Position numbers and translations under genes: made by a program. Shown one piece after another: positions 29,823 through 32,963 of a stretch of DNA of 32,963 nt. The stretch spans positions 1-32,963 of the forward strand of contig JAESTF010000358.1 of NCBI GenBank assembly GCA_016763795.1, given 5' to 3'. Origin of the DNA: Flavobacteriales bacterium. GTDB lineage: Bacteria; Bacteroidota; Bacteroidia; Flavobacteriales_E; Vicingaceae. The notes beneath the pieces are model-generated. The model did not search any database. It was not told the DNA's origin and was given only the letters and a program-made list of their open reading frames with translations. Within the stretch, counting starts at the first letter, position 1. Every line of letters starts with the position of its first letter.

Positions 29823-29854
29823 AAAAAATCCCACTCGAGAGAGTGGGATTTTTT
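29823..29854. terminator. Bidirectional intrinsic terminator between convergent M16 and GDPD-like genes
   Basis: AAAAAATCCCACTC-GAGA-GAGTGGGATTTTTT, perfect 14-bp stem. Confidence 0.93.
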
Positions 29855-29907
29855 GTTGAAATTATAAATTACTAAAATTGGGTACACTTTTAGTAATTTA
29901 TTTAAAC

Positions 29908-30729
29908 CTACTTTACGATATTTAATAGATTTTTAATTTTATCAGTTTGTATAAAATCAGGGAACTTATCTACTCCTATTTTATTATCACTTTTTGATTT
30001 TACTTCCCAAATAGTAATAAAAATATTATTATCATGAGCAATAGAAACTTGCTCTTTAGTAATGTTTTTTGTAGAATTAGAAATTCCATAAAGATTGAAA
30101 TCTTGAGCAATTTTCATGCCTTTATTAAAATCATCACGATTAATAAATAACTTATAATTGCTATTTTCTAGCTGTAATAGTTTTAAAAAATTAATGTCTT
30201 GAGATTCGATAAAAGAATTACCTAAACTATATTTATTAATAGTAGAATTAAGAGCATTAACATAATCGTTATAGTACTTTGTTTTATCAGCATTTTTAGG
30301 GTATAATTTACAATCAAATGTAAAAATATAAGAGTGTAAGTTTTTTATATTGGAAAAAAGCTGGTCAAGCGAAATGATACTGTAATTAGAATATAGAGGC
30401 TTACTGTATCTTCCATATTTGATTTCTGACCAATTTAAAGACCTTACTAATCCTCTGATATTTGTACTTGTAGATAAATCATGATCATGAAAAGCAATTA
30501 GAACATTATCTTTAGTTAGTTGAATATCCAATTCTGTGCCATCGGAACCTAAATTTAAAGATTTTAGTAACGATTCGAATGAGTTACGGGGGTAGATGTT
30601 TATATTTCCCATACCAGAATGGCCAAAAGCAGAAACTTTATTTCCATTAAGATTCTTTACTTTAACCTTTTCAGACTTACTACATGATAATGATATTACT
30701 AAAATGATATATATACTTGTTTTTTTCAT
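29908..30729 (-). CDS. Glycerophosphodiester phosphodiesterase-like lipoprotein (paralog 1)
   Basis: Lipobox IILVISLSCSKS; GHSGMG...SDGTELDIQLTKDNVLIAFHDHDL GDPD core. Confidence 0.8.
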   Translation of the reverse strand: MKKTSIYIILVISLSCSKSEKVKVKNLNGNKVSAFGHSGMGNINIYPRNSFESLLKSLNLGSDGTELDIQLTKDNVLIAFHDHDLSTSTNIRGLVRSLNWSEIKYGRYSKPLYSNYSIISLDQLFSNIKNLHSYIFTFDCKLYPKNADKTKYYNDYVNALNSTINKYSLGNSFIESQDINFLKLLQLENSNYKLFINRDDFNKGMKIAQDFNLYGISNSTKNITKEQVSIAHDNNIFITIWEVKSKSDNKIGVDKFPDFIQTDKIKNLLNIVK

Positions 30730-30738
30730 CTTTATAAC

Positions 30739-31251
30739 TTAAAAAGCATAACCCACAGAAACCCCTCCCCAGTGACGATAATCGCTATAAAATTCGATTA
30801 TTGGAGTATAGTTTAATCTAAACATAAAGCCCCCTTTCTTTTTCTGGTAACGGTAACCAATAGTGAAATTTGTGTGAACATTAAAAACACGTTCAGGTTT
30901 ATAATTTTTTTTACTCGCTTGTACTATATTAGAGATTACTTGTCCCGCACCTAACTCTAAATTATGCTTATTACCATAAAGTGCATTAATTGAAATTGGA
31001 ATAATTATATCCGGATTAAACTTAGTGGTATAATCAGTAAAGTTTAAGGTACTAATTCCTGCACGTACACCAACTCTAATGGAACTGAAATTAAAAATAG
31101 TTCTCTCATAATTTAAAGAACCATAACCTCCAATACCTAAAATATCTAATGAAACAGAGTTGTTTGCAGTTGTGACTGTTGAGTCAGTTTGTGCAAAAGA
31201 AACGGAGTAGCTGAATAAAAATAAGATGAGGATGTAAATGTTGTATATCAT
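30739..31251 (-). CDS. Small outer-membrane beta-barrel-like protein, unknown function
   Basis: Signal peptide then alternating beta pattern, ends GGVSVGYAF; start revised from TTG 31266 to ATG 31251. Confidence 0.65.
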   Translation of the reverse strand: MIYNIYILILFLFSYSVSFAQTDSTVTTANNSVSLDILGIGGYGSLNYERTIFNFSSIRVGVRAGISTLNFTDYTTKFNPDIIIPISINALYGNKHNLELGAGQVISNIVQASKKNYKPERVFNVHTNFTIGYRYQKKKGGFMFRLNYTPIIEFYSDYRHWGGVSVGYAF

Positions 31252-31258
31252 AATAAAT

Positions 31259-32098
31259 TTAATCAACTAAATGTATTAAGTTTTTAATTTTATCAGACTG
31301 AATAAAATCAGGATTTTTTCTAATCCCATCTTTATTAGCACTTGTTGAATGTATTCCCCAAATAGTTACAAATAAGTTGTTGTCATGAGCAATTCTAATT
31401 TGTTCTTTAGTAATATCTTCGGTAGAAATAGTTATACCAAATAAATTAAGTCGGATGGCAGTTTCTAATCCATTATCAAAAGATGAAGGGTATATAAAAA
31501 GCTTATAGTTACTATTTTTTAATTGTAATAATTTTAAAAAATCTTCATCTTGAGATTCTATATAGGAATTATTTAATAAATTGTATTTAGTTATTATTTT
31601 AGATAATTCATTAACAAAAGAGTTCAAATATTTATTCATGTTAGATGAACTCGAATTTAATTTAATATCGAACGTATATTTATAGGTATTTAGGTTTTCT
31701 ACATTTGCAAAAAAGTGATCCAACGTAATAATATTATAATTTGTATAGATAGGATTTTTATATACTGCTTTTTGTATTTCAGCCCAAGTTAATGAATGAA
31801 TTAAACCATTAATTGTTGTGTTTTCTGATAAATCAATATCATGAAAAGCAACTAAAATATTATCTTTTGTTAGTTGTACATCAAGCTCTGTACCATCAGC
31901 ACCAAAATTTAAGCATTTAAGTAACGATTCATAACAATTGAGCGGGTAGGTACTTCTATTACCCATTCCTGCGTGCCCATAAGCGTCAATTTTATTACCA
32001 TTTAAGTTATTGATAGTGAAGTTTTCATCTTTACTACAAGAAACAATAGTAATAGTTAATAAAATAAATGTTTTATAAATGATTGGTTTTAGTTTCAT
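31259..32098 (-). CDS. Glycerophosphodiester phosphodiesterase-like lipoprotein (paralog 2)
   Basis: Lipobox LLTITIVSCSKD; GHAGMG...ADGTELDVQLTKDNILVAFHDIDL; colinear with the 29908-30729 protein. Confidence 0.8.
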   Translation of the reverse strand: MKLKPIIYKTFILLTITIVSCSKDENFTINNLNGNKIDAYGHAGMGNRSTYPLNCYESLLKCLNFGADGTELDVQLTKDNILVAFHDIDLSENTTINGLIHSLTWAEIQKAVYKNPIYTNYNIITLDHFFANVENLNTYKYTFDIKLNSSSSNMNKYLNSFVNELSKIITKYNLLNNSYIESQDEDFLKLLQLKNSNYKLFIYPSSFDNGLETAIRLNLFGITISTEDITKEQIRIAHDNNLFVTIWGIHSTSANKDGIRKNPDFIQSDKIKNLIHLVD

Positions 32099-32286: not shown

Positions 32287-32963
32287 ATGATATATAAAAT
32301 ACAGGAAATAATAGTAGGTATAATCTTGTTTAGTTTAATTGTTGGAACAACAAATAAAAAGTCTTTTTCAGAAGATAAAGTTGAATCAATTAATATTGTA
32401 ACAGGAGATATAAGTTTTATAAATAAGTTTGGAAAAAAGCCAATTTTAGAAACAAGTGAGACCTTGAGGCTAAAAACTCATTTGGAATATGTAGAGTTAT
32501 TATTAAGAAAAAAAAATGTTAAGGGTTTTTCTGAAAACAGGATAAAACAGAGAACTCATACACTAGATTTATTACATGATTATTGGGTTGCAGGAGTATT
32601 TCCTAAGAATTATGAATCTAAAGGAAAACGGTTGCCTTGTTTTATTGATAAGGATAGAAAAATCTGTGCAGTAGGTTACTTAATTGAAAAAACAGCAGGA
32701 AGGCAACTTTCAGAAAAAATTAATTTAACATACAAGTATGAGTATGTATTTAATATGAATGATAAAACTATTGATGATTGGATGCTAGCTAATGGTTTAA
32801 CAAAATTGGAGTACGCTATGATACAACCCACTTACGGTTTTGATAATTCAATAATTATTAAAGTATGGGATGGGAATGGAAAACATAAGAAGTACAATAA
32901 AATAAGATTATTAGTTGAGGAAGGTACGTTTAAGGATTACAAATTAATGAATGGAAAAAAATA
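32287..32963 (+). CDS. Hypothetical exported protein, 3' truncated by window edge
   Basis: Open from ATG 32287 to window end: MIYKIQEIIVGIILFSLIVGTTNKKSFSEDK...LLHDYWVAGVFPKNYESKGKRLPCFIDKDRKICAVGYLIEKTAGRQL...IDDWMLANGLTKLEYAMIQPTYG; absent from the ORF track. Confidence 0.75.
   Translation, partial: MIYKIQEIIVGIILFSLIVGTTNKKSFSEDKVESINIVTGDISFINKFGKKPILETSETLRLKTHLEYVELLLRKKNVKGFSENRIKQRTHTLDLLHDYWVAGVFPKNYESKGKRLPCFIDKDRKICAVGYLIEKTAGRQLSEKINLTYKYEYVFNMNDKTIDDWMLANGLTKLEYAMIQPTYGFDNSIIIKVWDGNGKHKKYNKIRLLVEEGTFKDYKLMNGKK

Follow-up and report, generated by a model that had tools for sequence, protein, structure and literature searches.

The main finding of this analysis, which rests on sequence comparison, is that two paralogous lipoproteins of a Bacteroidota bacterium belong to a variant of the glycerophosphodiester phosphodiesterase (GDPD) fold in which a catalytic change is real and extends across the whole subfamily, and which recurrently has a small barrel-like gene as its neighbour. 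The window, that is, the whole stretch of 32,963 nucleotides that was analysed, comes from a metagenome-type assembly (G000; 377 contigs, 75% complete) and contains three minus-strand genes in a row with gaps of no more than 9 bases, at exactly the coordinates of the first-pass annotation. GDPD_A (31259..32098) encodes a 279-aa GDPD-like lipoprotein with lipobox Cys21, then CSKDEN. It is followed by the barrel gene (30739..31266; 175 aa, with a signal peptide and 8-9 predicted strands, ending in Phe) and, after 9 bases, by GDPD_C (29908..30729), whose 273-aa product has its lipobox Cys at position 16 and is 57% identical to GDPD_A over its length (E 1e-111). The TTG start of the barrel gene at 31266 overlaps GDPD_A, and an alternative ATG at 31251, which would give a protein of 170 aa, lies 7 bases past it. 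By its spacing, this gene packing is operon-like. A hairpin recognised by eye at 29823..29855 (unstranded; ATCCCACTC-GAGA-GAGTGGGAT, with approximate arms and with A- and T-runs on its flanks) sits between GDPD_C and a convergent M16 peptidase gene and is likely to be a terminator common to both; the terminator scanner reported none, and the terminator and promoter scans gave no excess over shuffled sequences. The neighbours of the operon in the window are M16 peptidases and an unknown gene, which offer no clue to the substrate. At 32287-32963 a partial divergent gene with a RLPCFIDKDRKICAVGYLI stretch is cut by the contig end, and it has no Pfam match.

Both lipoproteins are, by profile and by predicted fold, members of the broad GDPD-fold family PF03009. 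Their matches to this profile (E 9.7e-22 and 6.7e-22; 78.7 and 79.2 bits) are far above the curated cut-off of 23.6 bits, and the GDPD model (pLDDT 70.3, with its N-terminal 53 residues unreliable) has the canonical enzyme 2pz0 as its top structural match (E about 1e-15, TM 0.80 on the target). Reading of the motifs (GHAGMG...YPLNC...ELDVQLTKD...FHD in GDPD_A and GHSGMG...YPRNS...ELDIQLTKD...FHD in GDPD_C) bore out the initial observation that the HRG and PENT signatures are replaced in both proteins while the ELD and FHD segments are kept; HRG reads HAG and HSG, and PEN(T/S) reads PLN and PRN, respectively. The lipoprotein nature proposed for both agrees with the lipobox Cys found in each. 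In GDPD_A the first catalytic histidine is retained in H42-A43-G44 (31967..31975, minus strand, as are all the residues that follow), with Ala in place of the HRG arginine, and the second, essential one is H86 (31841..31843). In GDPD_C the counterparts are H37-S38-G39 (30613..30621), with Ser in place of the arginine, and H81 (30487..30489).

The first-pass annotation had also counted the glutamate of PEN among the metal ligands, so that a ligand appeared to be lost. This part did not hold. The metal ligands in solved GDPD structures are E44, D46 and E119 (E111 in pfGDPD), and the PEN glutamate is not among them (PMC4926365, PMC5095149); loss of a metal ligand was therefore rejected. Because the alignments place E71, D73 and D144 of GDPD_A on E44, D46 and E119 of 2pz0, the metal site is read as intact, with Asp instead of Glu as the third ligand. 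Two of these ligands lie in E71-L72-D73 (31880..31888) and the third in D144-I145-K146 (31661..31669), in which the phosphate-side K146 aligns to K121 of 2pz0. The equivalent residues of GDPD_C in the same alignment are E66 and D68 (E66-L67-D68, 30526..30534) and D139 (D139-C140-K141, 30307..30315, aligned to E119/K121). Docking places H17, R18, H59, E111 and K113 in contact with the substrate (PMC4926365; PMC5095149), and by alignment the arginine is the sole catalytic or substrate-contacting residue missing from the window proteins. Compared with canonical GDPDs (T. tengcongensis ttGDPD 2pz0, P. furiosus pfGDPD, GlpQ/UgpQ), the window proteins share the PF03009 TIM-barrel, the ELD ligands, both histidines, the Lys after the third ligand and an insertion of normal length (58 residues between H86 and D144 here, 60 between H59 and E119 in 2pz0). 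They differ in that the arginine is changed to G, A or S in their subfamily, the PEN glutamate is mostly lost, the third ligand is Asp and not Glu, and the proteins are lipoproteins with an NLN leader and about 22% identity.

The change is not peculiar to the window proteins. A contig-level scan for relatives gave only three (a Flavobacteriales, a Saprospiraceae and a Bacteroidetes MAG), and whole-genome searches were therefore used. Searches of relatives and of 395 Bacteroidia genomes gave many homologues, and conservation was counted over 33 full-length members of this HxG subfamily, which diverge down to about 27-30% identity. The predicted loss of the phosphate-contacting arginine was confirmed throughout, residue 43 being G in 25 members, A in 6, S in 2 and R in none. 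The other catalytic positions are nearly fixed: H42 in 31, E71 in 32, D73 and H86 in all 33, and D144 in 31 (Glu in the other 2), with K (23) or R (10) at residue 146. The PEN glutamate is dropped in 29 of the 33 and retained in 4. Where a genome also has an HRG GDPD, as the window genome does (G000:C20), a maximum-likelihood tree places it apart from the Arg-less sequences. Such ordinary HRG GDPDs were found in five of the seven genomes searched (G000, G026, G024, G009 and G112), and the Arg-less subfamily is therefore not their housekeeping enzyme. In G026, which belongs to the same genus, there are two tandem genes, one grouping with GDPD_A and the other with GDPD_C (support of 100 for the C pair). 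This indicates that the duplication is older than the split between the two genomes; gene order has changed since then, being A-barrel-C in the window and barrel-C-A in G026. The Arg-less branch is widespread and apparently undescribed: among the open-access titles and abstracts listed, none described a pair of an Arg-less GDPD lipoprotein and a barrel.

Several members depart from the common pattern. The first catalytic histidine is Asn in L033 (5995-6849; GNAGMG) and Asp in L053 (6254-7120; GDGGIG), with the second histidine and the metal ligands retained in both. In locus L187 (686-3450, minus strand) a 163-aa barrel follows the end of a TonB-dependent-receptor-like protein and precedes a GDPD-like lipoprotein (GHAGSG) in which D-x-K reads N-x-Q, possibly a degenerate member. 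Two further cases may be intermediates between the HRG and HxG forms: a lipoprotein with GHKGSG (L143, 133-1011) and, in L108 (4569-5117), a truncated form with GHRGMG that comes after a 234-aa barrel-like protein. A third subfamily group (L044, L045, L046, L047 and L048) has longer HxG-to-P loops (GHGGLGF..W.PF) and adjoins translation-GTPase (BipA-like) or other genes; there is no barrel there.

One way to read these data is that the proteins are ordinary periplasmic glycerophosphodiester phosphodiesterases engaged in phosphorus scavenging, for which the arginine is simply dispensable. The PF03009 score above the curated cut-off, the retention of all the remaining catalytic residues and the closeness of the fold to 2pz0 speak for it. 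It is nevertheless considered unlikely, given that the arginine is lost in 33 of 33 members while the rest is retained, that the PEN glutamate is also gone in 29, that HRG GDPDs coexist in most of the genomes examined, that the pairing with a barrel recurs and that no phosphate-scavenging neighbours were seen. The first-pass annotation had suggested instead a changed substrate or a binding role. The former is plausible. The latter, in which the proteins would be pseudoenzymes or lipid-phosphate binding lipoproteins with the barrel as a membrane partner, could draw on the loss of an arginine that contacts the substrate in canonical enzymes (docking, PMC4926365), on the loss of the first histidine in L033 and L053 and on that of the third ligand in L187. 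However, ExD, the second histidine and D-x-K/R are almost invariant among 33 sequences as divergent as about 27-30% identity, which would be hard to maintain without catalysis, and a pure binding role is thus regarded as improbable.

On the strength of this near invariance across the 33 relatives, the window GDPDs are probably active enzymes and not binding proteins. A precedent is S. aureus LpgD, a lysophosphatidylglycerol phospholipase D (8ghh), in which LPG hydrolysis depends strictly on the second histidine and the metal site, the first histidine only accelerates the rate and the reaction passes through a cyclic phosphate (PMC10404611). The same hierarchy appears in the subfamily, where H86 is invariant and H42 is lost in two members; conservation of this kind is therefore taken to reflect selection for catalysis. 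The GDPD fold is common to both, and action on membrane lipids through two-histidine/metal cyclic-phosphate chemistry would be too. Unlike the window proteins, LpgD has canonical active-site residues, and the window proteins score 35.7 bits against its equivalog cut-off of 450. The catalytic losses in L033 (Asn for the first His), L053 (Asp for the first His) and L187 (N-x-Q for D-x-K) run counter to this reading.

A second comparison concerns the GDPD-like SMaseD/PLD enzymes of arthropods and actinobacteria. In spider PLD the phosphate is held by Mg and by Lys93 of an Asp91-x-Lys93 pair, and lipids are cleaved (PMC6299612, PMC13079978). The window proteins have the corresponding Asp-x-Lys pair, D144-I-K146 in GDPD_A and D139-C-K141 in GDPD_C (Asp91/Lys93 there, D144/K146 here; PMC6299612), as well as the two histidines, and they may likewise hold phosphate through Mg and Lys and use lipid substrates. 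Loss of the arginine with retention of D-x-K thus suggests a lipid substrate for the Arg-less GDPDs. In the SMaseD/PLD enzymes the long beta-alpha-1 loop is shortened and the GDPD insertion deleted, whereas the window proteins retain both. The His-to-Glu and His-to-Asp distances are 29 and 58 residues here, 27 and 60 in ttGDPD and, by the residue numbers in PMC6299612, 20 and 44 in SMaseD/PLD. Membership of the SMaseD/PLD lineage was rejected on account of these loop and insertion lengths, which are near those of ttGDPD.

The preferred explanation, to which about an even chance is given, is that the locus encodes two paralogous, outer-membrane-anchored, metal-dependent phosphodiesterases that act on a lipid phosphodiester, together with a small outer-membrane barrel. 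On this view, phosphate binding would fall to the metal and Lys146 alone, and the reaction typical of the GDPD fold, which takes two steps through a cyclic phosphate, would use the two histidines as acid and base. In the absence of the arginine pocket, the substrate would be a larger membrane-lipid phosphodiester and not free glycerophosphodiesters. The barrel may serve to present the enzyme at the outer membrane or to stabilise it there; alternatively, it may be a second lipid-handling component. Anchoring of the lipoproteins in the outer membrane is predicted as likely. The surface-export signal of Capnocytophaga is C-X-K-(D/E)2-X (PMC5080379); it fits GDPD_A (CSKDEN) and both G026 proteins but not GDPD_C (CSKSEK), and these three are the only fits among the 33 members.

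The barrel protein has no Pfam or NCBIfam match. Its AlphaFold model, built from two sequences and of low confidence (pLDDT 57), shows 8-9 antiparallel strands and has OmpX, OmpA, Ail and PagL as top structural matches (E 0.003-0.02). When its co-conservation with the GDPDs was checked, the expected pairing was partially recovered. In 16 of the 31 loci examined, the Arg-less GDPD gene has a small barrel-like gene immediately upstream on the same strand, mostly overlapping it; these barrels divide equally, eight each, between the window type and a second type. Since no barrel adjoins the GDPD in the remaining 15 loci, it is not obligatory. No relation between the two barrel families was detectable, hhalign aligning only their signal peptides. 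Among the 395 genomes, the best 7 matches to the window-type barrel all adjoin an Arg-less GDPD, unlike the 23 examined after them; the second type gave 6 strong matches, all adjoining, plus a weak adjoining match in L187. It is possible, if doubtful, that the barrel is a generic OmpX/OmpA-like neighbour kept by operon inheritance and with no functional tie, which would be compatible with any of the other readings. The wider window-type family is present in 99 of the 395 genomes, in most cases not beside a GDPD, and the order of the genes varies between the window and G026. Against this stand the seven best window-type matches, all beside an HxG GDPD, and the second, unrelated family, which is found almost only beside GDPDs. 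The strength of this counter-evidence is overstated: the barrel profiles contain GDPD-linked sequences, which makes the adjacency counts partly circular, and L187 alone is independent.

Further, the neighbours of a second clade of the subfamily point to a class of lipid. In L041 (4840-8289), L043 (3700-7207) and L053 (4991-8451) a block of four genes encodes a PAP2_3 protein, a second-type barrel, an Arg-less GDPD lipoprotein and myo-inositol-1-phosphate synthase (MIPS). Pfam was run on the PAP2_3 protein of L041 and the synthase of L043, and the other genes of the block were read from near-identical sequences. The block spans two genera of the window's family, and its PAP2_3 protein is AUR1/IPC-synthase-like. 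A further synthase copy is found elsewhere in G024 and G009, and the window genome has its MIPS gene on another contig (C348). The inositol-lipid cluster of Bacteroides includes the AUR1-like BT_1522 and the MIPS BT_1526 (PMC9246714). The resemblance lies in the position of the second-clade relatives between PAP2_3 and MIPS genes; the differences are that no GDPD or barrel was found in the passages of PMC9246714 on that cluster and that the window operon is not beside such genes. By analogy, these neighbours tie the second clade, and not directly the window operon, to inositol phospholipids; the substrate of this clade would be an inositol phospholipid or inositol phosphoceramide. The lipid specificity proposed for the subfamily thus draws on analogy and on neighbours found only in the second clade. 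In L034 (7700-9919; G026:C28), which belongs to the closest relative, a 739-aa patatin-domain membrane protein is encoded directly upstream of the barrel-GDPD-GDPD operon, another possible lipid link. The most specific proposal is an outer-membrane lipid-remodelling module of Bacteroidota. In it an Arg-less GDPD-fold lipoprotein would cleave inositol phospholipids or inositol phosphoceramides, with cyclic phosphates as possible products, and would have a barrel of its own as partner, drawn from two unrelated families. As a whole this proposal is speculative and distinctly improbable.

By convention, the motif that defines GDPDs includes the HRG arginine. A branch that always lacks it and keeps the other catalytic residues is a natural test of the role of that arginine, and also of whether lipids become the substrates when it is lost, which has been proposed for GDPD-like phospholipases D. 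Profile annotation would name the Arg-less proteins just glycerophosphodiester phosphodiesterase, a label that may be wrong. In conclusion, the pairing with a barrel, together with the inositol-lipid genes present in some genomes, provides a handle on how the phosphodiesters of inositol lipids and sphingolipids may be processed at the Bacteroidota outer membrane.
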